Part shown: one piece after another, positions 6,323-41,675 of the stretch
How positions within the stretch are numbered: position 1 is the stretch's first letter
Layout: each line of letters opens with the position of its first letter
DNA from: a bacterium
GTDB taxonomy: Bacteria > Patescibacteriota > Microgenomatia > Daviesbacterales > UBA10151
Length of the DNA stretch: 41,830 nucleotides
Assembly (NCBI GenBank): GCA_021790255.1
Contig: JAJYIE010000005.1
Span: forward strand, 8,123-49,952
Reading direction: 5' to 3'
Position numbers and translations under genes: made by a program
Notes under the pieces: generated by a model
The model's input: only the letters and a program-made list of their open reading frames with translations
Databases searched by the model: none
What the model was told of the DNA's origin: nothing

Positions 6323-7459
6323 TTATATCTCCCCCAGCTTTTTGAACGAATAATCTAAAAGTTCCCGGGCTTCTTGCCGGCGGTCGTCGCTGTTTAATAT
6401 CACTCCCAAAACCTCATGGCTGCCCCGTTTTGCCAAAGTTACTATGGTCAGCCCGGCTTCCGGAGTATACCCGATTTTTAAGCCGATTACCCCCGGATAA
6501 GTAGTTAATAAATTAATACCCGAATATAGGTCATATGCCTGATGTGTCGATGTAGGCGGCAGATATACGTGATAAGTCCGGGAAATTTGCGTTACCTCCG
6601 GATACTGTTTTACCAGGTAGCGGCTCATGAGTGCTACATCCAAGGCTGTTGAATATTGCGTTTTTCCATCTTCTTCAAGTCCTGTCGGGTTAATAAATTT
6701 AGTATCATTCATCCCCAGCTGCAAACTGATTTCGTTCATTTCGGAGATAAACTTACTTCGGCCGCCGGGGATATTCTCCGCTAAAGCCTCTGCGGCATCA
6801 TTGGCAGAAGAAAGAAACACTCCGTAGAGAAGCTCCTCCACCAATAATTTTTCACCCGGAATAAGGCCCATATGGTCCGGTTCGATAGAGGCGGCAAAAT
6901 TACTGACCTGAATGGTGTCACTAAATTTATGGTGAGCCAGGGTTACGGTAACAGTCATAATTTTCGTCAGGGAAGCAATCGGCAATTTTACATCGGCGTT
7001 TTTTTGGTACAAGACCTGGCCGCTGTCTATATCAACGAAGTAAGCGGCCTTAGCGGTAATATCCGGAGCCAGCGAGTTTCCCCTGTTCACGGTTCCCGGA
7101 TACCACAAGTTCATCCCTAAAACACGTCCCTCCCAAACCGCAGGAGAAAAAAGCTGTTTTTGTGGTACTTGTTGTTTTCCTAAGAAATATCCACCCCCGG
7201 CAAAGATAGTAAGTCCCAGCACAAGGTAAATTATCTTTGCAAATGAATGCCTTCGGCCGGACGGTTTTTCTTCCGGGACCGGACTACTGCCGGCTGAGTT
7301 AAAGAAAAGGTGCCGGGCTTGGCCGGGTTCCCCGTAGATCACCCTGATTACCGGCTTTTTTAAGCCGGGATTTTTACTGGCTGGGGGTGCGGTTTTCCAG
7401 TGCAGAAACATCAGTTGCTTGGGCGGTCGGCTCCGGAGGAAGCGCTGGTCAAAAAACAC
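6323..7459 (-). CDS. D-alanyl-D-alanine carboxypeptidase (PBP5/DacA-like)
   Basis: Removes the terminal D-Ala from peptidoglycan stem peptides outside the cell. The 378-aa frame has an N-terminal cytoplasmic extension, one transmembrane helix (about 74-93) and a penicillin-binding serine peptidase S11 domain. The catalytic motifs are SLTK (Ser163, Lys166), SAN (218-220) and KIG in GLKIGYTPEAG (328-330, in place of the usual KTG). PBP5 normally has a cleaved signal peptide and a C-terminal amphipathic anchor. Here the anchor is N-terminal and there is no long C-terminal domain. The frame opens with GTG at 7459; an internal ATG at 7411 is also possible. Confidence 0.9.
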   Translation of the reverse strand: MFFDQRFLRSRPPKQLMFLHWKTAPPASKNPGLKKPVIRVIYGEPGQARHLFFNSAGSSPVPEEKPSGRRHSFAKIIYLVLGLTIFAGGGYFLGKQQVPQKQLFSPAVWEGRVLGMNLWYPGTVNRGNSLAPDITAKAAYFVDIDSGQVLYQKNADVKLPIASLTKIMTVTVTLAHHKFSDTIQVSNFAASIEPDHMGLIPGEKLLVEELLYGVFLSSANDAAEALAENIPGGRSKFISEMNEISLQLGMNDTKFINPTGLEEDGKTQYSTALDVALMSRYLVKQYPEVTQISRTYHVYLPPTSTHQAYDLYSGINLLTTYPGVIGLKIGYTPEAGLTIVTLAKRGSHEVLGVILNSDDRRQEARELLDYSFKKLGEI

Positions 7460-20414: not shown

Positions 20415-20488
20415 TGCGGGATCGTCTAATGGTAGGACGATGGACTTTGGATCCATCTATCATGGTTCGAATCCATGTCCCGCAGCCA
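20415..20488 (+). tRNA. tRNA-Gln (anticodon TTG)
   Basis: A complete cloverleaf: acceptor TGCGGGA/TCCCGCA, D-arm GTC...GAC with AATGG loop, anticodon stem ATGGA/TCCAT with loop CTTTGGA (anticodon TTG), T-arm CATGG-TTCGAAT-CCATG, discriminator G, and encoded CCA (20486-20488). Its 3' end is the junction with the integrative element. Confidence 0.95.
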
Positions 20489-21970
20489 ATCTCCTGATTT
20501 TTGGTAGTTTAGTACCGCTTGGAAGATTGTATTGAAGCTAAATTTGAGTTTTTTGTCCATTAAAGAGAGGTTCGAAAATACTAAATTACACAGGTACCTT
20601 TTCTCCTCTGGCTTTCGAACCTGATAGATTTCTGAAGCTCGATTTGCTACATCTAGTATCAAACAACCAAAGTCCACATATTTTTCATCAGCAACAGAAT
20701 GTTCTTTAATCCGGGTTTCAATATCAGATCTTTCTGATAGGTATTGTTCTCTCTTCCGGTGGTACGTGGTCTCATCGATTTCTCCATCCAATTTATCGTC
20801 ATATATTTCGTCAAGCCATTTGGTTACCCGATTAAGACTTGTTCTTAATTCGCGTACGGCATTGTTACGAAATTCAACTTCATCCTTATGGCTTTCTTTA
20901 AGCTTATTTTTGAGCCACTCTGTCGTTTTCTCGCCTAAAGAAAGCGTACTAAGGAGCCCCTCGATCTGTTTATCAATCTCTTCTTCTCGGACCATTCCAT
21001 GCTGGTTACAGGGCTTGTAGTGGGTGCAATGATAGTAAACCCAGAGGTGCTCCTTTCCATTGCCTTTATTCTTTTTAGTCTTCTCCTCTCCGGTGATCTG
21101 GTAATTGCACTCTCCACATTTCATTAAGCCTTTATAGGTTAGCTCGTGCTTTGCATAAACTGGAATAACTTCACCGTTTTTAGTCCTATTTAGCATCTCT
21201 TGAACACGATCAAAAAGTTGTTTATCAATCAAGGGTTGATGTTTGCCTTCATAAAGATGATTATTCCACCGTAATATTCCGTAATAAATTGGGTTTGTTA
21301 AGATTTTGAAAATTAGACTTTTTACGAGAGGCCTGCCTAGACTAGTCTGCATGCCTTCTTTATAGAGGCTTATTCTTAGGGTCTGAAGTGAGTGTGAGCC
21401 TGCGGCATATAACTCAAAGGCTTTTCTAATGAAGCTAGCCATCGGTTCATCGGGAACTAATAATTTATTAACTTTTTTGTAACCAGTTGGAGACATTCCA
21501 CCAGGCCACTTACCTTCTTCCAACATACCTCGCTGGCCTTTTTTAACTTCATCAGATAAATTGTCGATGTAATTTTTTGCTAGCACGGCTTTTATATCAA
21601 ATTGAAATTTAGCATGTGAATTTGAAGTTTTACTTAAAACAAAATTGTCTCTGGAAAAGACAAAGGTTATGTCATGATCATATACCAAATCATAAGCTAA
21701 AGTAACGTCTTTTAGGTTTCTACTTAGCCTATCTGGCTTTTCGATGTATACGAACTTAATATTAGGGTGTTTTTTGAGGTATTCAACAGCTTCGTGAAAC
21801 TCATCTCTTTTCTCGCTAGCCTTGGCCGATTCGATGATGTTAAATTCTTTAACAATCTTTCTGCCGTCACGCTCCGCTATCTCTCGGTTTAATTTGGCTT
21901 GTTGGGGCAAGGAATACCCCTCATCCTGTCTTTGACTAGAGATTCTATTTATAGAAACTGCTTCTTCCAT
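20426..21970 (-). CDS. Large serine recombinase (integrase)
   Basis: Site-specific recombinase that likely integrates the element. 514 aa. Resolvase catalytic domain with nucleophile in INRISSQRQDEGYSLPQQ (Ser11) and the EKPDRLSRN motif. The Recombinase domain runs from about 155 (GGMSPTGYKK). The zinc ribbon is CGECNY...CTHYKPC (Cys285, 288, 315, 321), followed by a coiled-coil region (about 350-440). The last 20 residues (495-514) are translated from the antisense of tRNA-Gln and end inside it at 20426, so this C-terminus is created by the integration junction. The ATG directly follows the stop of the gene upstream. Confidence 0.93.
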   Translation of the reverse strand: MEEAVSINRISSQRQDEGYSLPQQAKLNREIAERDGRKIVKEFNIIESAKASEKRDEFHEAVEYLKKHPNIKFVYIEKPDRLSRNLKDVTLAYDLVYDHDITFVFSRDNFVLSKTSNSHAKFQFDIKAVLAKNYIDNLSDEVKKGQRGMLEEGKWPGGMSPTGYKKVNKLLVPDEPMASFIRKAFELYAAGSHSLQTLRISLYKEGMQTSLGRPLVKSLIFKILTNPIYYGILRWNNHLYEGKHQPLIDKQLFDRVQEMLNRTKNGEVIPVYAKHELTYKGLMKCGECNYQITGEEKTKKNKGNGKEHLWVYYHCTHYKPCNQHGMVREEEIDKQIEGLLSTLSLGEKTTEWLKNKLKESHKDEVEFRNNAVRELRTSLNRVTKWLDEIYDDKLDGEIDETTYHRKREQYLSERSDIETRIKEHSVADEKYVDFGCLILDVANRASEIYQVRKPEEKRYLCNLVFSNLSLMDKKLKFSFNTIFQAVLNYQKSGDWLRDMDSNHDRWIQSPSSYH

Positions 21971-27379: not shown

Positions 27380-28036
27380 TCAAAGCAACCATTTTTTCCT
27401 TTTCCTAAGATGGATATAAATAAAAAAGCCGATAAAAACCAGAAATGGAATCAGAAGCAGTGCATAGTAACTGTAATGCGCATGCAAAAGATATAAAATC
27501 TTTGTTCCTAATTGTCGCCCGACAGATAAATAAAAAGCGATCCAAAAAATGACCGAAATAAATGTTCCTAAAATAAAGGTTTTATAGGAAATACCAGACA
27601 TACCGGAAAAAACGGTAATCGGGACCCTAAATCCCGGGATATGGCGGCCGAAAATAATTACCCAAATTCCGTATTGGCGGAATTTTTCCTCAACGGTGAG
27701 AAGTTTTTTCTCGTCAAGATGAATATATTTGCCAAATTTAAGAACGATAATTTGTCCGTATCGGAAAGAAAGATAATACAGGATTGAAGCACCTATAAGT
27801 ACAGAGAGAAGCAAGAGTATAAAAGCAGTAAAGTATGGAATTGAACCTTTGGAAACCAGGTAACCGGTATAGGAAATATAGACATCTCCGGGGATAGGTA
27901 AAGGTACTCCAGATTCCTCCAGCACCAGAAGCAGCATGGGAGCCAAAATCCCATTGTGAGTTATAAACACACCCAGCCAGTCAGTTAAAGGATCCAGCCG
28001 GCTTGTTTCAAAAAAGTTTAATAAATTCTTAAACAT
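27380..28036 (-). CDS. DedA-family (SNARE-associated/VTT) membrane protein
   Basis: A polytopic membrane protein of 218 aa. DedA proteins act in lipid-carrier flippase or proton-dependent envelope functions. ESGVPLPIPGDVYISYTGYL near 36, the signature FGRHIPGFRVPITVFSGMSG (about 129-148) with the conserved Arg/Gly/Pro positions, and five to six helices. It overlaps the histidine kinase gene by 8 bp, so it is the third gene of the response regulator-kinase-DedA operon. Operon coupling suggests a role in envelope homeostasis controlled by this system. Confidence 0.9.
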   Translation of the reverse strand: MFKNLLNFFETSRLDPLTDWLGVFITHNGILAPMLLLVLEESGVPLPIPGDVYISYTGYLVSKGSIPYFTAFILLLLSVLIGASILYYLSFRYGQIIVLKFGKYIHLDEKKLLTVEEKFRQYGIWVIIFGRHIPGFRVPITVFSGMSGISYKTFILGTFISVIFWIAFYLSVGRQLGTKILYLLHAHYSYYALLLIPFLVFIGFFIYIHLRKRKKWLL

Positions 28037-29039
28037 AGGGCAGTGTAATTTTGACTTTGGTACCTTTTCCTTTTTTCGATGTTATATCTATTTTCCCGCG
28101 GTGTTTTTCGACAATCGTTCTGACAATTGGTAACCCTAATCCGTAGCCTTTGATCTCTGAACGAGAAGAATCTGCCCGGTAAAACCGGTCAAAAATTTTG
28201 TTTAAATTATTGGCAGAAATACCGATTCCGTTATCTTGGATTACTACTACTGCTCCCATTGGCCCTTTTTGTAAAGTTATCCGGATACTTCCCCCAGTTG
28301 GAGTATATTTTATAGCGTTATCGATAAGGTTAAAGAAAAGTTGTCTTAATAAATCCTCCTGTCCAAAAACAGTTGTTGTTTCTTTTGCCGGTTTAAAATG
28401 TAGGATAAGATTTTTTTCTGTTAAATACCCTTTAAGCTGAACAACAATGCTGTTTACAATATCTGTAAGATCAACCATGCTTTTTTGCAAGGCCTGACTG
28501 TTTTGGTCATCACGGACTAAAAATAGCAAATTTTCTACCAGTTTGCTCAACCTGTTAATCTCTTCTTTTGTACTGATAATGGTTTTTTTATAGTCCTTGA
28601 TATTTCTGTCTTTCTTTAATGTCACTTCCATTTCTCCGCTAATAATGGATAATGGTGTTTTAAGCTCGTGTGAGACGTCTGACACAAATTGCTTCTGCTG
28701 TTCGTGTGCCAGCCTAATTGGTTTGAGTGAACGTTGTGCTAAGAACCAGGATAAGGCTGGGATAATCAGAACAAAAACCCCGTTTAAAACCAATAAAATC
28801 ATCTTTAATTGGTCAAAGGCGACGCTTCCAGCAATAGCAACCAGAGTGGTTGTCTGGCTATCAAATTCTCCTTCGTTTTGGCCGGTTTGCTCTTTTTGTA
28901 TTTGCTGGACTTGATTAATATATCCTGTTCCAAACGAGTTATTCATCCAAAAATATAAACCGAAACTGAAAATCCAAAATAGAGCAAGAAATAGTACAGA
29001 ATAAGTCAGGGTTAATTTAATTAGGGCTTTTTTAAACAT
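28029..29039 (-). CDS. Sensor histidine kinase
   Basis: 336 aa, two transmembrane helices (about 8-31 and 78-100) around a roughly 45-residue extracytoplasmic sensor region rich in Gln/Glu/Thr (QIQKEQTGQNEGEFD). The HisKA phosphorylation site is SDVSHELKTPLSI (His124). The HATPase_c domain has the N box (NLIDNAIKYTPTGG), the G1 box (DNGIGIS) and G2 (GYGLGLPIV). The small sensor loop is typical of intramembrane or envelope-stress-sensing kinases. Starts 6 bp after the response regulator. Confidence 0.95.
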   Translation of the reverse strand: MFKKALIKLTLTYSVLFLALFWIFSFGLYFWMNNSFGTGYINQVQQIQKEQTGQNEGEFDSQTTTLVAIAGSVAFDQLKMILLVLNGVFVLIIPALSWFLAQRSLKPIRLAHEQQKQFVSDVSHELKTPLSIISGEMEVTLKKDRNIKDYKKTIISTKEEINRLSKLVENLLFLVRDDQNSQALQKSMVDLTDIVNSIVVQLKGYLTEKNLILHFKPAKETTTVFGQEDLLRQLFFNLIDNAIKYTPTGGSIRITLQKGPMGAVVVIQDNGIGISANNLNKIFDRFYRADSSRSEIKGYGLGLPIVRTIVEKHRGKIDITSKKGKGTKVKITLPYV

Positions 29040-29045
29040 CTTATT

Positions 29046-29720
29046 TTAGGAAAGCTTCATGATATATCCCGAACCTCTCATGGTATGAATCAACTCTTTC
29101 TCTTGGGTTTTGGTCTTTAGTTTCTTTCTTAAGTACTTAATATATGTCTCAACAATATTAGAAAGCCCGTCGTAGTTATAATCCCAAACATGTTCAAGCA
29201 GTTGGGTTTTGGTTACTAACGTATTCTGGTTTCTCATTAGATACTCAAGCAGAGCATATTCCTTGGTTGTTAAGATGATTACTGCATCCCCCCGGATTGC
29301 TGTTTTGGTAGCCGGGTTGAGTGTAAGATTGTCAATAGTTAAAATAACAGGATCAGCTTTTTTGCCGCGTCTGATTAAAGCACGAATACGGGCAGAAAGT
29401 TCATCAAAAGAAAAAGGTTTAGTAACATAGTCATCCGCTCCCGCGTCAAGACCGTTGATTTTATCTTCTATCTGCCCTTTAGCGGTCAAAAGTAAAATCG
29501 GAATGCCGGTATCTTTTTGTCTAATCTGGCGGCAGACTTCAATGCCGTCTACCTTGGGTATCATTAAATCCAGTATTATACAGTCATATTCATTAATATC
29601 ATATTTATAAAGTGCTTCTTCACCATCTTTGGCGGTATCTACCGCATATCGCTCTTCTAAAAAACCTCTCCGTAAAAAATTAGCTATTTTTTCCTCATCC
29701 TCAACAACCAATAAGCGCAT
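29046..29720 (-). CDS. OmpR-family response regulator
   Basis: 224 aa from the ATG at 29720. REC domain with acidic pair VVEDEE, phospho-acceptor Asp51 (IILDLMIP) and Lys81 (LLTAKGQ); OmpR/PhoB winged helix from about 125 (ILTIDNLTLNPATKTA, TTKEYALLEYLMRN, SNIVETYIKYLRKKL). The mRNA appears leaderless: TATAAT ends 6 bp before the ATG. Its promoter carries one copy of the 11-bp-period direct repeat found at four more promoters nearby, which strongly suggests autoregulation and a local regulon. Confidence 0.95.
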   Translation of the reverse strand: MRLLVVEDEEKIANFLRRGFLEERYAVDTAKDGEEALYKYDINEYDCIILDLMIPKVDGIEVCRQIRQKDTGIPILLLTAKGQIEDKINGLDAGADDYVTKPFSFDELSARIRALIRRGKKADPVILTIDNLTLNPATKTAIRGDAVIILTTKEYALLEYLMRNQNTLVTKTQLLEHVWDYNYDGLSNIVETYIKYLRKKLKTKTQEKELIHTMRGSGYIMKLS

Positions 29721-29726
29721 ATAATA

Positions 29727-29761
29727 ATTATACTGGAAATTAGATGAGAATAGCGTGGGAA
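29727..29761 (-). promoter_or_regulatory. Response-regulator promoter with regulon site 1
   Basis: Minus strand: TTCCCACGCTATTCTCAT (29761-29744), 11 bp, -10 TATAAT (29732-29727), then 6 bp and the ATG. The half-sites TTCCCAC and TTCTCAT start 11 bp apart, the spacing of OmpR-type sites. Confidence 0.75.
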
Positions 29762-29789
29762 TAAATCTATGAATCATGGTAAGCCTAAT

Positions 29790-29824
29790 TTTTCATGACA
29801 TTCCCATTTGCTACATAGTAAAAT
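29790..29824 (+). promoter_or_regulatory. Glycosidase promoter with regulon site 2
   Basis: TTTTCATGACATTCCCAT (29790-29807), 11 bp, -10 TAAAAT (29819-29824). There is no -35 consensus; the site takes its place. Confidence 0.75.
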
Positions 29825-29850
29825 TGGCAGACATCTGTTGAAATCTGTCC

Positions 29851-30954
29851 ATGAAAAAAAGATCAGTTATCTTCGTTTTTGTACTTATTTTAATAGCCAC
29901 AGTTATTTTCGTCTACTTAAACCCTACAGTACTCGCAGCCCAAGCTGCCGATAGTGATTTGCGGCCTCTTTTAGGAGATAAAGACACCATAACTCTAGAG
30001 TCATTGTATTTTAACTTAAGCGATGATATCAATAAAATAATTTATCGATATATAACTCCCAACACCGATATTTTTTACTCCTCAGCAGGTTCACCAGCAG
30101 ATAGCCATGAGATGACGAATCTTGTTCCCGTTATTCTAAGAAACAATGTTTTTCCACTTCCTTTTGAGGGTGTTTGGAAAACTATTAATAACCCGTTATT
30201 CCCAGAATACACTGTCCTGGCCAAAACCTTTGTCCGGCCTGACCCGTCCCGGCCCTATGCGGTAGTATCGTTTGTAAAAATGGACATGAGTAAGCTGGGA
30301 ATCAGAGTCCAAGCCGGTACGTATTATCCCGGTGGAACACATGGTGTCTATGGACCGGGGGTTATCCCCCAAAATATCCAGCAATCAAATATACTTGTGG
30401 CGGCTTTTAACGGTGGTTTTATGGAAAAAGACGGGCACTACGGAATGGTTGTTAACCATAAGGTATATGTTCCCCTCCGCAACAGTTTGGCGACCCTAGT
30501 AATGTATTCAGACGGATCGGTCAAAATGGTTGATTATCAAGGACAGCCACTTGGTGCAAATGTCGTAGGAATACGCCAGAACGGGGCTTTTTTAGTCAGA
30601 AATGGCGTTATTACATCTTTTGCTGAAAACAGCCAGGACAGCTGGGGACGGACCATCACCAATTCCATGTATACTTGGCGCTCTGGTATCGGTATCACTA
30701 AAAACGGCAACTTAATTTATGCTGCCGGTAATTCTCTAACACCTCAGACATTGGCAGTCGCTTTAGAGAAAGCGGGGGTAGTTGACGCCATGCAGCTTGA
30801 TATCAATCCTCCCTGGGTACGTTTTATCATCTATGATCCGCTCGGAAACGGCAACTATTCCTTTTATCCCTTGCTTAAGGCAATGAAAGACGGTGGTTAT
30901 GCGTATCTGCACGGTTATAATAAAGACTTCTTTTATGTGTACAAGAAAACCTAA
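29851..30954 (+). CDS. Secreted phosphodiester glycosidase (NAGPA-domain) protein
   Basis: 367 aa with an N-terminal signal/anchor (about 5-25, then LAAQAADS as a possible cleavage site). From about 125 the sequence fits the phosphodiester glycosidase fold named after the lysosomal 'uncovering enzyme' NAGPA: LGIRVQAGTYYPGG, LVAAFNGGFMEKDGHYGMVV, LRNSLATLVMYSDG, VVGIRQNGAFLVRNG, and MQLDINPPWVRF near the end. The bacterial members are thought to act on cell-wall glycopolymers or exopolysaccharide. The promoter carries the regulon motif, so it is probably induced with the ABC transporter and two-component genes. Confidence 0.85.
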   Translation: MKKRSVIFVFVLILIATVIFVYLNPTVLAAQAADSDLRPLLGDKDTITLESLYFNLSDDINKIIYRYITPNTDIFYSSAGSPADSHEMTNLVPVILRNNVFPLPFEGVWKTINNPLFPEYTVLAKTFVRPDPSRPYAVVSFVKMDMSKLGIRVQAGTYYPGGTHGVYGPGVIPQNIQQSNILVAAFNGGFMEKDGHYGMVVNHKVYVPLRNSLATLVMYSDGSVKMVDYQGQPLGANVVGIRQNGAFLVRNGVITSFAENSQDSWGRTITNSMYTWRSGIGITKNGNLIYAAGNSLTPQTLAVALEKAGVVDAMQLDINPPWVRFIIYDPLGNGNYSFYPLLKAMKDGGYAYLHGYNKDFFYVYKKT

Positions 30955-30980
30955 GGGCTCTCTTTTAGCTTCTTATGTTA

Positions 30981-31014
30981 TTTTCATCGTTATCCCATTG
31001 CTTGTTTCTATAAT
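30981..31014 (+). promoter_or_regulatory. Promoter of the small secreted protein with regulon site 3
   Basis: TTTTCATCGTTATCCCAT (30981-30998), 10 bp, -10 TATAAT (31009-31014). This gene also has a ribosome-binding site AAAGGGGGTG. Confidence 0.7.
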
Positions 31015-31044
31015 GAGTTGTATGAAAGGGGGTGACTATTAAAC

Positions 31045-31338
31045 ATGAGTAAGAAGACCTTTTTGCCTGTTCTGGCTATAGCGTTTTTAGCTTTTGGTGT
31101 ATCCCTAACCGGTATTTTAGCCCAACAAAAAGTTCATGCCCAAGCTCCGACAACTACGCCGCAGGCTGCAGTTGTATCATCAGTCAATAATGCTGCTGAG
31201 TCGGGGGCACAGTCTACGGTAGATAAAGAAAGTGCCGATAGAACCAGTGGAGCGGCTGAAAACGAGAATGACAGTCCAGGTGGGCACCAAGATGCCCAGG
31301 GGGCAAGTGTTGATCACCAGTTTGAAGGAGCAGAATAG
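31045..31338 (+). CDS. Small secreted acidic protein, unknown
   Basis: 97 aa. A classic signal peptide (about 1-33: KKTFLPVLAIAFLAFGV...QQKVHAQA, cleavage after VHA-QA), followed by a 64-residue unstructured, Asp/Glu/Ser/Gly/Gln-rich mature part with no cysteines. No known domain. It is strongly expressed in prospect: good -10, good ribosome-binding site and a terminator. It belongs to the putative regulon. Confidence 0.75.
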   Translation: MSKKTFLPVLAIAFLAFGVSLTGILAQQKVHAQAPTTTPQAAVVSSVNNAAESGAQSTVDKESADRTSGAAENENDSPGGHQDAQGASVDHQFEGAE

Positions 31339-31360
31339 TTAAATTGGCTGGCCACTAAGC

Positions 31361-31395
31361 AATAATCCGGGAGGTAGTTTGCTTCCCGGATTATT
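31361..31395. terminator. Long hairpin, probable bidirectional terminator
   Basis: Perfect 12-bp stem AATAATCCGGGA/TCCCGGATTATT with an 11-nt loop. A/T at the stem base replaces a long T-run. It lies between convergent genes (31338 and 31391) and overlaps the end of the latter. Confidence 0.6.
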
Positions 31396-31579
31396 TGATA
31401 TTAATCGTTCGGTATAACAGTATACAGTCAAGTATAAGCAAGAAAATTAAGCTTATAAAAGAGACCTTTTGATAAATTGTTCCTCTAAACCCCTCGTCGA
31501 TTCCGTTATAAGATATCCAAAGGATAAACAAAATGTTTCCGGTGATTGCAACATAGCTTAGCAATCGATAGCTGTTCAT
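31391..31579 (-). CDS. Small two-helix membrane protein, unknown
   Basis: 62 aa from the ATG at 31579 (MNSYRLLSYVAITGNILFIL). Two hydrophobic helices separated by a WISYNGIDEGFRGT loop. I have the impression that similar short proteins are common in Patescibacteria, but this is recollection, not a search. It follows the next gene upstream after 5 bp. Confidence 0.6.
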   Translation of the reverse strand: MNSYRLLSYVAITGNILFILWISYNGIDEGFRGTIYQKVSFISLIFLLILDCILLYRTINIK

Positions 31580-31584
31580 ATTGG

Positions 31585-31860
31585 TTATAATCCGAAACAA
31601 ATTCCACCTAGACAAGCCCAGGGTAAATCCCCATCCAGATACCACTTATTGTTATATTTGACAATTTTAATGGTTTCACCGCTGCCCGTTTTACAGACGC
31701 CGTAATCAGCCTTCTTTTCCAGTAATTGAACACAACCCCGAAAAGTATAATAATTTTCAAAATTGCTGTGGGCCCTTTTTAAAACCAGAAACTGATTTAT
31801 TCCGAAACTAAGTATCAGAAAAACAATGAAGACTGAAGTGATAAGATAAATTTTACTCAC
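31585..31860 (-). CDS. Anchored extracytoplasmic protein with four cysteines, unknown
   Basis: 91 aa: an N-terminal helix (about 4-24), then an exported part with Cys in TFRGCVQLLE, YGVCKTG and WACLGGICFG, which could form two disulfides made by DsbA/DsbB. The promoter (minus strand) is TTGACT (31897-31892), 19-bp spacer, TATAAT (31872-31867). It lacks the regulon site, so it may be expressed constitutively. Confidence 0.6.
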   Translation of the reverse strand: MSKIYLITSVFIVFLILSFGINQFLVLKRAHSNFENYYTFRGCVQLLEKKADYGVCKTGSGETIKIVKYNNKWYLDGDLPWACLGGICFGL

Positions 31861-31900
31861 AACACAATTATAACCTATTGAATATTATTTTAGTCAAGGA

Positions 31901-32533
31901 TTAGTCCTGGGTTTCTGCTCCGCCGGCGGCTTTTTCCACACTGGCGGTTTCGATTCTGTAGCCAGGAGTACTGACTATCACCGTAAAGTGGAGTTTATTT
32001 GTGGAAGTAAAGTACAAACTGCGGGTATTGGCGGAGAAATGCCCGATCCCGGATTTATTATCAAAGTTAATGGTCTGGGTTGCCCCAGCTTTTAAGGTGT
32101 AATTTGCCAGTTTTTTATAATAGCCTTCCTTTTTGTTTGTAACCGTATCGGTAATAGTGTAATAAATTTCAAAATTGGATAAGTCCCGATTGGTCAGATT
32201 TTGGAGAGCTAACTCTAAATGGTCACTAACTGGATTCCCTGCTTGATCAGTATTATTCTCTACCATGATGGAGGCTATCTTAAAACCTTCTGTGGTGGAG
32301 TTATTTTTAATAGGGTTAGGATACAGCCCCGGAACGATGTCTTGTGGATCCTGGGCTGTGGCCTGAGCACTATTACTGCTTGGCATTGAAGACGTGGTGT
32401 TATTTTGAGATAGTTGAGAAGCTGAATTTTGATTAGTTGCCGACTGAGAAGCCGGCGTGCCTGTGGCCATGATATAGATTCCGAAAGCCGCGATAAGAAA
32501 AAATCCGATAATAATTATTGCTTTTTTATTCAT
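31901..32533 (-). CDS. Anchored extracytoplasmic protein of the ABC locus, unknown
   Basis: 210 aa. One N-terminal helix (about 5-24), a Ser/Asn/Gln/Thr-rich linker (to about 70), then a beta-rich domain resembling an immunoglobulin-like fold (KIASIMVENNTDQ, LELALQNLTNRDLSNFEIYY). No cysteines. It may help the neighbouring ABC transporter sense or bind a ligand at the surface. It has its own copy of the regulon site and lies after the second permease gene. Confidence 0.7.
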   Translation of the reverse strand: MNKKAIIIIGFFLIAAFGIYIMATGTPASQSATNQNSASQLSQNNTTSSMPSSNSAQATAQDPQDIVPGLYPNPIKNNSTTEGFKIASIMVENNTDQAGNPVSDHLELALQNLTNRDLSNFEIYYTITDTVTNKKEGYYKKLANYTLKAGATQTINFDNKSGIGHFSANTRSLYFTSTNKLHFTVIVSTPGYRIETASVEKAAGGAETQD

Positions 32534-32540
32534 CCTGTTT

Positions 32541-32575
32541 AATATAGCTCATTTAAGATGGGAATAACATGAAAA
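32541..32575 (-). promoter_or_regulatory. Promoter of the anchored protein with regulon site 4
   Basis: Minus strand: TTTTCATGTTATTCCCAT (32575-32558), 11 bp, -10 TATATT (32546-32541), then 7 bp to the ATG at 32533 (leaderless). Confidence 0.75.
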
Positions 32576-32578
32576 TTG

Positions 32579-33559
32579 TTAATTTGATTTTGACAAAAAT
32601 TTCCGATTATTGGAGAAGTAAAAAGCCGAAGCAATACTGCCAATATAAAAGCCGATCAGCCATAAAAAATTACCCCATTGGTCTTGAAATATTGAGCGCA
32701 GATCCTTACCGTTATAAATACTTTTAATCCCTAAGGTGGCAAAGGTCAATCTTTCGTAGTGTTTTTCTACTGAACTTTCTTCCAGGATATTCCGCCAGGT
32801 TTCATAGGTTTTAAAGTTTGTCATCACCTGTTGCTGCTGATGAGTATCCATATGCAGGCTGTTAAATAATCCTCCCGGGACCTGATTATCAGGATCCATA
32901 GTGTCACCGATTTGAGGGATAATAAGTACAATCAGTAACCAAATGATAAACCCGACAATCAAGGCATTTGGTAAGCTTTTAAAAAAAAGTGACAGAAGGG
33001 TTGATAAACAAAAGAAAACCATTAGATAAAGGTATGAAAAAAGAAGACCTAAAAAGAGTTTGAAAAGTTCAGCCTGGGAAAAAGCTACATGCCCGATCCC
33101 GGAGATAGCAAAAACAATGAACAGGCCGATCAGCCCCAGTATTGAAAAAAGCAAAAGAGTATTACCGAGGATTTTCCCACCAATAAGTGAAAGTTTGGAA
33201 ATCGGCCGGCTCAGTATTAACTGCATGGTGTTATTGCCTTTTTCTTTGGCAATACTGATATAACCTAAAATAATGCCGATAATCGCTCCGATTATTTCCA
33301 GGTACTCAATTGTCCCCCGCAACATCTGCAGAGGGAAATACTGTGGCTTATCAAGAATCACTCCGGACTGGCCCATGCTTTGTAGTTGGGTAATCGCCCT
33401 GTTGTACTGGTCCACCTGTGCCTGGAAGTTAAAAGCAGACACCATCAGGGAAATACCAACCAGTGAAAAAAGGAAAAGTAAGAGTGTTAAAAACAACACA
33501 TTTTTGAGTGCGTCTTGATACCCTTTTTGGGCAATAATCCAGATTGTCAAACTATTCAT
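32579..33559 (-). CDS. ABC-2 type (NosY-like) permease 1
   Basis: 326 aa with six predicted helices. An N-terminal helix is followed by a long external loop (about 45-80: FQAQVDQYNRAITQLQS), then ISIAKEKGNNTMQLILSRPISK (the amphipathic coupling helix of NosY/ABC-2 permeases). Likely the membrane part of an exporter with the ATPase upstream. It overlaps permease 2 by 8 bp. Confidence 0.85.
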   Translation of the reverse strand: MNSLTIWIIAQKGYQDALKNVLFLTLLLFLFSLVGISLMVSAFNFQAQVDQYNRAITQLQSMGQSGVILDKPQYFPLQMLRGTIEYLEIIGAIIGIILGYISIAKEKGNNTMQLILSRPISKLSLIGGKILGNTLLLFSILGLIGLFIVFAISGIGHVAFSQAELFKLFLGLLFSYLYLMVFFCLSTLLSLFFKSLPNALIVGFIIWLLIVLIIPQIGDTMDPDNQVPGGLFNSLHMDTHQQQQVMTNFKTYETWRNILEESSVEKHYERLTFATLGIKSIYNGKDLRSIFQDQWGNFLWLIGFYIGSIASAFYFSNNRKFLSKSN

Positions 33560-34508
33560 ACATTTTATCCCTGGTGACAGCGTAATGGTAAAAGGTATAC
33601 AGGCTTAAAGCTATCGCCAGTATAAGATATACAAAAAGGGAAATGCCCAAACCACTGTTTTGGGCAATGATCTCTGCTATTGATAAGGACGTGAATTGTT
33701 TTTGGGTTTCAAGAAGAGGTTGGGCCAGACCTGTATAATGCTGTTCAATAGAAAAAGGGGTTAAAACACTATGCATTAAAGTAAAGAATGCTCCTTGAGG
33801 AGCTGTTTGGGTGATATTAGTGGGGTTTAAAAGTGCTACTGGATTCTGCCCGGTGGTAAGCTCGGGGAAAATGAAGGTCACAGCTACCCAGATGATAATC
33901 GGGGCTAGCAGTGCTAATGATTCGGTGGGCAGGACAATGGCAAATAAAAGGCCAATCATTGCAAAAATAAGCATGTAAATTAAAGATAGAAGATAAAATA
34001 AGCTTAATCTTATGATTTCTTGCTGTGTCAGTAACTGGCCAGGAATGAAAAAGGATGATAGCAAGCTAATAAAAAACACGGCGAAAATAATTAGCAGGAG
34101 CGCGGCTAAAATGCCTACGATCTTCCCGGCAATAAAACATGTCTTACTAATTGGTTTGGTGAATAATAATTGAACCACTCTAGACTTTCTTTCTCTAATA
34201 AATGAACTATGGCCAATTACAACACTGGTCAGCGCTCCAATTAGAAAAACATAGATAATCATGTTGCGAAAAAGAGCCAGAGCCGGAATCATGATAAACG
34301 GATTGGACGGTAAATGAGTTACCCCCGATTGTTTCAAAAGGATTAGTGAGGCATTGTATATCCCCAAAACGGTTGTTTTTGTTGACCAGCCTATCAAAAC
34401 GGAAAAGAGTGTCATGGCAAGAAAAACAGAAAGAAGTAGCAGAAAAGTTTTTTCGCGCATCAAGACCCGTATTTCGTTGGCCGCGACTATAAGTATCTGT
34501 TCAAACAT
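33552..34508 (-). CDS. ABC-2 type (NosY-like) permease 2
   Basis: 318 aa, a paralogue of permease 1. It opens with a coupling helix (NEIRVLMREKTFLLLL), then a similar FIRERKSRVVQLLFTKPISK segment and six helices. Two different permeases plus one ATPase fit a heterodimeric exporter of the NosFY/antibiotic-exporter type. Its start is 14 bp after the ATPase stop. Confidence 0.85.
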   Translation of the reverse strand: MFEQILIVAANEIRVLMREKTFLLLLSVFLAMTLFSVLIGWSTKTTVLGIYNASLILLKQSGVTHLPSNPFIMIPALALFRNMIIYVFLIGALTSVVIGHSSFIRERKSRVVQLLFTKPISKTCFIAGKIVGILAALLLIIFAVFFISLLSSFFIPGQLLTQQEIIRLSLFYLLSLIYMLIFAMIGLLFAIVLPTESLALLAPIIIWVAVTFIFPELTTGQNPVALLNPTNITQTAPQGAFFTLMHSVLTPFSIEQHYTGLAQPLLETQKQFTSLSIAEIIAQNSGLGISLFVYLILAIALSLYTFYHYAVTRDKMYE

Positions 34509-34522
34509 AATATATAAATTAA

Positions 34523-35266
34523 TTATACTTTTCCCTGTGATTCCATCTGGATGTAAATTTCTTCAAGAGCTACCTCATCAGGGAATTTCTGAAGTGTTTT
34601 TTCAAGTGTATCTTTGTAAATAAGTTTACCGTGATTTAAAACACCTATCGAAGTACAAGTCTTGGCTACTTCAGAAAGAAGATGGGTATTTATAAAAACA
34701 GTGATATGTTTTTCTTTATTTAAACGAATGATTATTTCTCTTAGATTTTTTATTCCTAAAGGATCCAGGCCAGATGTTGGCTCGTCCAAAAAAAGCACTT
34801 TGGGGTCATGAATAATAGCTTGGGCAATGCCGATCCGTTGACGCATCCCTTTGGAAAATTCTCCCATTTTTTTATTCTCAATGCCCGTAAAATCAAGAAA
34901 TTCAAGCACTTCTGCAACTTTTTCTTTAACATTTTTTACTCCTGAAAGTCTAGCAAAATAAGCCAAATTTTCAAAGGCAGTTAGATTATTATAAAAAGTC
35001 ACATTTTCCGGAAGATAGCCGATTTGTCTTTTGACCTGCAAACTTTCCTTGATAGTATCAAGCCCTGCTACTGTTGCCTTTCCGGAAGTTTGCCCAAGAA
35101 GAGTTGTTAAAATATTGATTGTGGTTGTTTTGCCAGCCCCGTTATGCCCTAAAAAACCAAAAATTTCTCCTTCGTATATTGTTAGGTTTAAGTTATCGAG
35201 AGCGAGGCAGTTATTATACTTATGACTTAGATCTTGAGTGTTAATAATCGGATTTTTGCCAGTCAT
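34523..35266 (-). CDS. ABC transporter ATPase (NosF-like)
   Basis: 247 aa. Walker A GHNGAGKTT (about 38-46), Q-loop IGYLPEN, signature FSKGMRQRIGIAQA (about 138), Walker B VLFLDEPTSGLDP, and H-loop NTHLLSE. The CcmA/NosF branch pairs with ABC-2 permeases. First gene of the ABC operon, with a leaderless start: -10 TAAAAT ends 6 bp before the ATG. The promoter carries the regulon motif. Substrate unknown: lipid, peptide or polysaccharide are all possible. Confidence 0.93.
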   Translation of the reverse strand: MTGKNPIINTQDLSHKYNNCLALDNLNLTIYEGEIFGFLGHNGAGKTTTINILTTLLGQTSGKATVAGLDTIKESLQVKRQIGYLPENVTFYNNLTAFENLAYFARLSGVKNVKEKVAEVLEFLDFTGIENKKMGEFSKGMRQRIGIAQAIIHDPKVLFLDEPTSGLDPLGIKNLREIIIRLNKEKHITVFINTHLLSEVAKTCTSIGVLNHGKLIYKDTLEKTLQKFPDEVALEEIYIQMESQGKV

Positions 35267-35272
35267 TACTCT

Positions 35273-35306
35273 ATTTTAGAAAACAGAGATGGGAATAAAA
35301 TGAAAA
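35273..35306 (-). promoter_or_regulatory. ABC operon promoter with regulon site 5
   Basis: Minus strand: TTTTCATTTTATTCCCAT (35306-35289), 10 bp, -10 TAAAAT (35278-35273), 6 bp, ATG at 35266. This is the best-matching copy of the motif. Confidence 0.75.
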
Positions 35307-35531: not shown

Positions 35532-35888
35532 TCAGTTTACGAAATACAGTTCCGCCGGTGTTTTGTATCCCAGTGACTCATGTAAACAAATGTTGTTGTA
35601 TCAATAAATAAAATTATCAATATTATCTTCCGCTTCCCAAACAGACTGATAGTTCTTTAAGTCTACCTCATTATATTTCAAAGTTCCCCAGAATCTTTCA
35701 GTGAAAATATTATCAAAGCAACGACCCCTATGATCCATACTGATTTTCGTTCTTTCTTGATCCCAAAATCCGATATAATCAGTATCGATGAATTGGACTC
35801 CTTGGTCGCTGTTCATAATTTCTGGAATTCCAACAGTTAATGCCTTCCGTGCTGCTTTTAACACAAAGGGTCTAGATAAGTTAATGTG
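35532..35888 (-). pseudogene. IS3-family transposase OrfB remnant
   Basis: The C-terminal part of an rve-type integrase: RPFVLKAARKAL, NSDQGVQFIDTDYI, SMDHRGRCFDNIFTERFWG, LKYNEVDLKNYQSV, then after an in-frame TGA the normal end ESLGYKTPAELYF. The 5' part (with the first catalytic Asp) is missing, and a TAG stands just upstream. TGA takes the place of a residue after FIY, so the gene is dead. TGA is used as a stop elsewhere in the window, so recoding is unlikely. The TGTATTGACAGACGG sequence beyond it may be an IS end. Confidence 0.85.
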
Positions 35889-39959: not shown

Positions 39960-41675
39960 TTAAGCCGGCTGCTTATTCTCACCGGGCCGGCGGCGCAAGA
40001 GTGATCCGGCGGATGTCAGCATCATACCCAAGCCGACTAAACGCTTGACAAAAGGCCAGCGGGAAGCTGGCGGTTCTCCGGCTGTATTGGGTAAAGCTTC
40101 GGGAGTTTTAGTCACATGAACCTCTGGCGAAGGACCAGGTTTCCCGGGAACTTGAGTTTGGGGAGTAGTTTCCGGCGCGCCGGGTACTGTAACCGACGGC
40201 GAAGACGGAACTCTTGGTACTGCGGTCGGTACAAAAACTTCCTGTACCCTTTGGGGAGTATTTGGAGTATTTTCTAACCTGGGTCCGCTCTCTTGGCTTC
40301 CACTACCTCCACCGCTTCCACTACCTCCACCGCTTTCTCCGCCGGAAGTTGTAGGCGTGCTTTGAGAAGTAGCAGTAGCTTCCGCACTCGGAGTAGGAGA
40401 AGCCTCAGGTGTCGCAGATGGACCGGGGGTTGGAGAAGATTCGGGAGTGGCAGATGGTCCAGGGGTTACTGAAGGTCCGGGAGTGGCAGATGGTCCAGGG
40501 GTCTCTGTTTTTGTGGGTGTCGGCTGCACAGTGGCAGTTTCAACTTCGGTAGGGGTCGGCGAAACCTGGCAGCCGGTGTGAGCCGGATTGGTTTTACCTA
40601 TGCCATTGTTTTGGTCACATTCATAACCCCTATTATTATCTGATCCATTGGGATATTGTCCTTTCGGATTTTTATTGTCAGCATTACCCACCTGGCCGGC
40701 GCCCGGTTCGCCCGTATGCTTGCCTTGCTCTTGGTTGCCGTTGCCCGATGGTGCGCCGACATTATTCGCATCGTAGGGGCCGGAATGGTTGGCACCGGGT
40801 CCGGTGGCAGGATACGGCACCGGGTCAGTCGTTCTAAGGTGCGGGTCGCCAGGGTTTGTATTACCGTCTTTGCTTTCCGTGGATGATCTGGTGGAATTTT
40901 GGCTTTCAGCAGAAGCATTACTTCCCGATGTGGTTTTCTCCCGTGCCTGGTTAGTCCCGGATCCGTTCTCAGTTGATGAATTGCTGTCTGAAGAGCTGGT
41001 ATTTTTACCAGCCCGATCCGGCTTGTGCGACTGGCCCCGGTCAGCCGCAGGTGGAGGATTAGATCCGTTGGCTTCGGCAGTCTGGACTGAGTTCAGGAAT
41101 GTGTCCGGGGCGAACAAAAGAGCCACTCCTACAGCTGCTCCCACCACTGCAGCAACCCTCGATGAGTTAGATACCACCCTTCTCATTGCTATGCTGAAAG
41201 GGGTTGGTTCAAGAAGTTCTTTGTCAGCATTTTTTTGGTTCTTTTCCGGCTGTTCCAGACTTTGCCAATACTGCTGGGCATCCCGATAAAAAGCACTCCG
41301 CCTACCTAAGGAATAACGCTCGATAGCTGCCCGACGGCGGGGGTCACTGAAATAAACAGATGCCCCGACATTCTCCATGTTAAAGCTTCCGTCTTTATTG
41401 ACGTCCGGAACATCTACCTCCCTAATCTCCCTTAACCTACTGACCCATGCACCCACGGAACGGTTTCTTCTCACTATGGCTGCATACACTCTCGGATCCA
41501 AAAAATCCCGCTGCTCATCGTCGACCCCATTAATACGGTAAAACTCACCCAGAACGGATTCTGCTCTTTGCCTGGACCGCGGGGAAAGCTGCGTTAAATC
41601 ACATTGCGGAGCTTTCACACCCGCAACGTTTCTTAAAATATCTTTATCAGTTTGCAGATAGACTTCTTTTGCCAT
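39960..41675 (-). CDS. Large low-complexity surface protein with LPNTA sorting signal
   Basis: 571 aa. Residues 1-160 are a globular, charged, EF-hand-like segment (DVNKDGSFN, about 91-99). A transmembrane helix lies at about 173-190. From 200 to 520 it is a disordered Ser/Gly/Asn/Pro/Thr region with a two-cysteine segment GYECDQNNGIGKTNPAHTGC (350-369), PGPSATPGPSVTP-type repeats (392-430) and a GSGSGGGSGS stretch. The C-terminus is a sortase signal: LPNTA (528-532), hydrophobic helix and RRR. LPNTA is the class D sortase motif. The internal helix plus the sorting signal is unusual. Expressed from a near-consensus promoter. Confidence 0.85.
   Translation of the reverse strand: MAKEVYLQTDKDILRNVAGVKAPQCDLTQLSPRSRQRAESVLGEFYRINGVDDEQRDFLDPRVYAAIVRRNRSVGAWVSRLREIREVDVPDVNKDGSFNMENVGASVYFSDPRRRAAIERYSLGRRSAFYRDAQQYWQSLEQPEKNQKNADKELLEPTPFSIAMRRVVSNSSRVAAVVGAAVGVALLFAPDTFLNSVQTAEANGSNPPPAADRGQSHKPDRAGKNTSSSDSNSSTENGSGTNQAREKTTSGSNASAESQNSTRSSTESKDGNTNPGDPHLRTTDPVPYPATGPGANHSGPYDANNVGAPSGNGNQEQGKHTGEPGAGQVGNADNKNPKGQYPNGSDNNRGYECDQNNGIGKTNPAHTGCQVSPTPTEVETATVQPTPTKTETPGPSATPGPSVTPGPSATPESSPTPGPSATPEASPTPSAEATATSQSTPTTSGGESGGGSGSGGGSGSQESGPRLENTPNTPQRVQEVFVPTAVPRVPSSPSVTVPGAPETTPQTQVPGKPGPSPEVHVTKTPEALPNTAGEPPASRWPFVKRLVGLGMMLTSAGSLLRRRPGENKQPA

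Follow-up and report, generated by a model that had tools for sequence, protein, structure and literature searches.

The window, by which we mean the whole stretch of 41,830 nucleotides analysed here, comes from a Patescibacteria genome of 941 kb in 45 contigs. The block under study comprises a response regulator (RR), its neighboring sensor kinase, and a set of genes for secreted, anchored, and membrane proteins. The features are listed below in the order of their positions.

27380–28036 (-): DedA/VTT-domain membrane protein, gene 3 of the RR operon; UptA is the closest named family, with a score under the cut-off
28029–29039 (-): membrane sensor histidine kinase (HisKA and HATPase_c); short extracytoplasmic loop of ~40 aa according to the loop alignment
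29046–29720 (-): OmpR/PhoB-family RR, 224 aa (Pfam Response_reg and Trans_reg_C), the proposed operator binder
29727–29732 (-): -10 hexamer TATAAT of the RR operon, ending 6 nt before the ATG
29744–29761 (-): candidate operator of the RR operon, TTCCCACgctaTTCTCAT; 11 nt to TATAAT; counterpart upstream of 15 of 18 RR orthologs
29790–29807 (+): candidate operator of the NAGPA-type gene, TTTTCATgacaTTCCCAT; 11 nt to TAAAAT; counterparts at L045, L048, and L143 (the latter away from the RR)
29851–30954 (+): phosphodiester glycosidase (NAGPA)-domain protein, Pfam PF09992, secreted or anchored
30981–30998 (+): candidate operator of the small secreted protein, TTTTCATcgttaTCCCAT; 10 nt to TATAAT; counterparts at homologs
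31045–31338 (+): small secreted protein with signal peptide, variable middle, and near-invariant C-terminus GGHQDAQGASVDHQFEGAE
31901–32533 (-): membrane-anchored protein with one predicted extracytoplasmic beta-sandwich (AlphaFold model)
32558–32575 (-): candidate operator of the anchored protein, TTTTCATgttaTTCCCAT; 11 nt to TATATT; counterparts at L048, L056, L134, and L141
32579–33559 (-): ABC-2 type permease (domain match)
33552–34508 (-): ABC-2 type permease (domain match)
34523–35266 (-): ABC transporter ATPase (domain match)
35289–35306 (-): candidate operator of the ABC exporter operon, TTTTCATtttaTTCCCAT; 10 nt to TAAAAT; counterparts at L048, L056, L134, and L141

The RR contains the receiver and winged-helix domains of the OmpR/PhoB family (PF00072, E 2e-31; PF00486, E 3e-26). 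It scored 198.1 bits against the PhoB profile TIGR02154 (threshold 296.2), 231.3 bits against the RppA profile NF041734 (threshold 250), and 221.9 bits against the CztR/SilR/CopR heavy-metal profile TIGR01387 (threshold 279.2). Due to these scores under the cut-offs, its identification as PhoB, RppA, or CopR was rejected, and the RR is an OmpR/PhoB-family protein that passes no named subfamily cut-off tested. The kinase was also below the thresholds of the cyanobacterial RppA/RppB-type (215 vs 400) and CopR/CusR-type profiles (198 vs 293). The DedA protein has the VTT domain and reached 89.1 bits against the UptA undecaprenyl-phosphate transporter profile NF052604 (threshold 250). The NAGPA domain was recognized with 43.2 bits (threshold 25), and glycosidase activity is predicted from it. 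For the anchored protein, the AlphaFold model gave an N-terminal helix followed by seven strands with a mean pLDDT of 61.7, and the fold search with this low-confidence model matched generic beta-sandwiches only.

The mechanical open reading frame of the RR, starting at 29777, is too long. We placed the start at 29720 because of the ortholog alignment and the predicted leaderless promoter. The distance from the -10 hexamer to the RR ATG is 6 nt in 10 of the 15 site-bearing orthologs and 7–9 nt in the other five. With the -10 hexamer so near the ATG, the mRNA of the RR operon is predicted to be leaderless (29714–29732, minus strand), a property kept in the orthologs.

The initial annotation had described one 18-mer shared by five promoters. 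All five sites were found at the positions and strands given there, each followed by a -10 hexamer at 10–11 nt, and the half-sites 11 bp apart were likewise present at all five. The literal 18-mer TTTTCATnnnATTCCCAT, however, is exact at only three of them (29790, 32558, and 35289). The site at 30981 has two mismatches, and the one at 29744–29761 (-) has four and was missed by a search at three mismatches or fewer. The form that fits all five sites is a direct repeat of two 7-mers TTYYCAY whose starts are 11 bp apart; the second half-site at 30981 begins with A. The common operator form is the 7-4-7 direct repeat TTYYCAY-N4-TTYYCAT. All five sites have the class II promoter geometry, overlapping the -35 position and lying 10 or 11 nt from a sigma-70-type -10 hexamer. 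A TTGACA-like hexamer some 17 bp from the -10 is absent from four of the five promoters; the fifth, that of the NAGPA gene, has ATGACA at 18.

In the host genome, TTTTCATnnnATTCCCAT with up to two mismatches was found at four block sites and one position elsewhere. TTYYCAY-N4-TTYYCAT without mismatches occurred four times in the block and twice outside, both outside copies having no -10 hexamer. When 10–11 nt and TAnnnT were added to the pattern, the four matches were restricted to the block. One additional single-mismatch copy with a -10 lies on contig 21, and it is compatible with background, as the reversed pattern used as a control gave 18 single-mismatch matches against 30 for the real one. 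The sites are thus not scattered at random across the genome; such scatter had been named in the initial annotation as fatal to its proposal.

The same site was then sought in orthologous loci. In a scan of named genomes, RR orthologs of 66–83% identity were found in Roizmanbacteria, WWE3, and other Patescibacteria bins, and also on contigs binned to unrelated phyla, which were probably misassigned. The host and taxon range is approximate, since many of these genomes were binned from metagenomes and some of their contigs are apparently misassigned. Of 18 orthologs (at least 58% identity, with upstream DNA present), 15 had the site and its -10 immediately before the RR; 14 of these passed the strict score, and L047 was one point below. 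None of 16 paralogs (roughly 41–52% identity) had the site upstream of the RR gene, which rules out a motif common to all OmpR-type regulators of these genomes, and no shuffled promoter scored up to the cut-off. One ortholog without a site at the RR (L058) carries it upstream of the htrA gene preceding the RR, and two others of 64% identity (L135 and L136) carry it at an FMN-binding gene. Among the orthologs, the recognition-helix region SNxxETYxKYLRKK is near-constant, and it is altered in most paralogs. Conservation in orthologous loci, whose absence would have counted against the initial proposal, was therefore found at the RR and at the target genes.

More distant RRs (48% identity) accompanied by the small secreted protein have an altered 11-bp repeat before the -10 (TCTTCATgaaaTCTTCAT at L139 and AATTCATgaaaACTTCAT at L147). 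These altered repeats beside diverged regulators suggest that site and regulator diverged together. In a separate locus (L140), two TTTTCATCTTCTTTTCAT promoters at 6502 (-) and 8523 (+) flank a different RR (40% identity). The gene behind the plus-strand site has a Pfam DUF1573 match, and the gene behind the minus-strand site looks similar by eye; the pair is possibly a sister regulon.

The class-wide scan comprised 374 genomes, of which 13 have a close RR ortholog (E<=1e-76). The site with its -10 was matched 21 times in these 13 RR-positive genomes and 22 times in the remaining 361 (Poisson p ~7e-23 for the RR-positive excess). In RR-negative genomes the rate is 0.061 per genome, the same as for the reversed control (~0.064; 24 matches counted in 374 genomes), so the pattern is at background outside the RR-positive genomes. 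The matches are clustered, with 6 of the 13 RR-positive genomes having any, against 21 of the 361 others (Fisher p 1e-4). Several further RR-positive genomes bear single-mismatch sites, which the strict pattern missed. Taken with the host-genome counts, these numbers rule out chance or a repeat artefact.

The target families that keep the site in relatives are the glycosidase, the small secreted protein, the anchored protein, and the exporter. Orthologs of the window targets with their own sites were found at L045, L048, L050/L141, L056, and L134. The target list of the initial annotation, consisting of the RR-kinase-DedA operon, the NAGPA-type glycosidase, the small secreted protein, the anchored protein, and the ABC exporter operon, withstood this comparison. 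Additional site-bearing genes in relatives encode HtrA, PepSY, FMN-binding, and HlyD/MacA-like proteins. The kinase is followed by DedA in the window and at L048; elsewhere, as read from translations, the next gene encodes an HtrA-like protease (L047) or a PAP2-like phosphatase (L055). The regulon had also been called local, which applies within the host genome but not within the family: in G189, a NAGPA homolog (64%) with its site lies in trans on contig 21, whereas the RR is on contig 15. One genome (G371) has two diverged copies of the module on contigs 46 and 36 (L048 and L141), each with its own operators; they may stem from two strains or from a true duplication.

The homologs of the small secreted protein consist of a signal peptide, a hydrophilic variable middle, and a near-invariant GGHQDAxGxNVDHQFEGVE that terminates at the last residue. 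No match was obtained against Pfam and NCBIfam models. Strong matches in the class were confined to six RR-positive genomes and G271, in which a 48% RR is adjoining, and the phylum sample added two cases, each next to a kinase-regulator pair. Within the class and the phylum sample, the protein is thus found only beside such pairs, and its genes in relatives carry the operator. A general sorting tag at the C-terminus was considered and is unsupported, as strong matches occur only with the RR ortholog, plus the few adjoining a 48% homolog. The protein may serve as a shield, bind metal, or act as a signal or feedback ligand. Quite tentatively, and with more doubt than confidence, we consider that it might be the extracellular arm of the circuit, whose C-terminal peptide, released or displayed, would be read by the adjacent kinase as a signal, feedback, or metal-loaded ligand. 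If true, this would be a self-amplifying peptide-signalling system in Patescibacteria. At L049, a secreted PepSY-domain protein (9688, plus strand) stands under the same operator in the usual place of the small secreted protein.

For the operator anatomy, 47 sites were collected. CA is invariant in both half-sites, although partly by construction, as these sequences were selected as sites; the ortholog-versus-paralog and class-wide counts are fairer tests. Conservation is higher in the second half-site than in the first. Between site and -10 there are 11 nt in 36 cases and 10 nt in the other 11. The flanks hold little information, which rules out recently duplicated promoter segments. The OmpR-type direct-repeat geometry put forward in the initial annotation agrees with known operators. 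In M. tuberculosis, a tandem dimer of PhoP binds two direct repeats of 7 bp separated by strictly 4 bp (PMC4832192), and the PHO box of E. coli has two 7-nt repeats, consensus CTGTCAT, with 4 nt between (PMC4415409), overlapping the -35 at PhoB promoters (PMC3348028). The window RR aligns with M. tuberculosis PhoP along its full length (E 7e-48) and shares the 7-4-7 repeat, but the PhoP half-site is TCACAGC instead of TTYYCAY, and the target genes differ. Likewise, the repeat overlapping the -35 is common to E. coli PhoB, whereas no phosphate-uptake gene was found among the target families here. The RppA/RppB and CopR/CusR-type systems are among the top named profile matches of the window RR and kinase; unlike them, the window block has no recognized metal-efflux target. 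The CpxAR/CssRS envelope-stress systems resemble the window system in being autoregulated and in having a small secreted protein and an HtrA target, the latter in relatives in our case. They differ in that the window small secreted protein lacks the Pfam and NCBIfam matches and the kinase sensor loop is as short as listed above.

From these data, we infer with a probability of about 0.8 that the block forms a regulon under the two-component system that it encodes, in which the RR would bind the sites in a class II-like manner and activate its own operon and four envelope promoters. The sites have the 7-bp repeat and 4-bp spacer of a direct-repeat operator, and their assignment to the RR is made by co-occurrence. 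An autoregulated RR-kinase operon, as first annotated, is consistent with the site upstream of the RR in most orthologs. The adjoining regulator very probably controls the cell-surface gene set jointly. In the proposed mechanism, an envelope disturbance would be sensed by the kinase, leading to phosphorylation of the RR. The phosphorylated RR would bind TTYYCAY-N4-TTYYCAT as a head-to-tail dimer, replacing the absent -35, and bring RNA polymerase to the -10 located 10–11 bp downstream, as in PhoB-like class II activation. It would thereby raise its own leaderless operon, including the kinase and DedA, as positive feedback, together with the four surface promoters of the secreted phosphodiester glycosidase, the small secreted protein, the anchored beta-sandwich protein, and the ABC exporter. 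The targets all look like envelope functions, hence the label envelope-maintenance regulon. On sequence grounds, we read the block as most probably an envelope-maintenance two-component regulon of Patescibacteria that regulates itself and uses a PhoB/PhoP-like operator.

Activation is favored because of the site geometry and the missing -35. The opposite mode, in which the RR binds but represses, its dimer on the -35 region blocking polymerase until released, is unlikely. The operator does overlap the -35 position at every promoter, and such overlap suits both modes; however, without a TTGACA-like -35, four of the five promoters would be weak in the absence of an activator, and the fixed 10–11 nt to the -10 is needed for contact with sigma but not for repression. 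Another regulator, such as a paralogous RR, could share the site, since 11 RR matches were found in the host genome at E<=1e-3, and the adjacent RR would then be merely a target. This is highly unlikely, because in the scan of 374 genomes only those with the RR ortholog have the site above the chance rate, and paralog promoters do not have it. The repeat might instead serve an alternative sigma factor as a core promoter element, in view of its -35 position and near-constant distance to the -10; this is barely credible given an ordinary sigma-70-type -10, an 11-bp direct repeat, and an occurrence that tracks one RR.

Few Patescibacteria (CPR) have been cultured, and knowledge of their gene regulation is scant. 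Sanchez-Osuna et al. 2017 reportedly studied, as their title has it, the LexA/SOS regulon in Patescibacteria by comparative genomics; unlike the regulon proposed here, that network, as far as the title indicates, concerns the SOS response and no two-component system. In the literature searched, we found neither a Patescibacteria two-component regulon nor an earlier description of the present one. The regulon proposed here comes with a candidate operator and promoter geometry, a list of targets, and a linkage to its regulator that was examined over hundreds of genomes, which makes it testable in metatranscriptomes or in vitro. It also includes a secreted peptide family that was found only in the neighborhood of such kinase-regulator pairs.

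Three further observations were made in the window. Near the exporter promoter, a translation read by eye shows an IS3-type transposase-like remnant at 35601–35864 (-). A tRNA-Gln (20415–20488, plus strand) overlaps the 3' end of a recombinase-like open reading frame (20426–21970, minus strand; translation read by eye), as expected of an element integrated at a tRNA. Short tandem repeats of 18/36 bp lie at 40296–40502, within an open reading frame (39960–41675) that resembles a Pro/Thr-rich surface protein.
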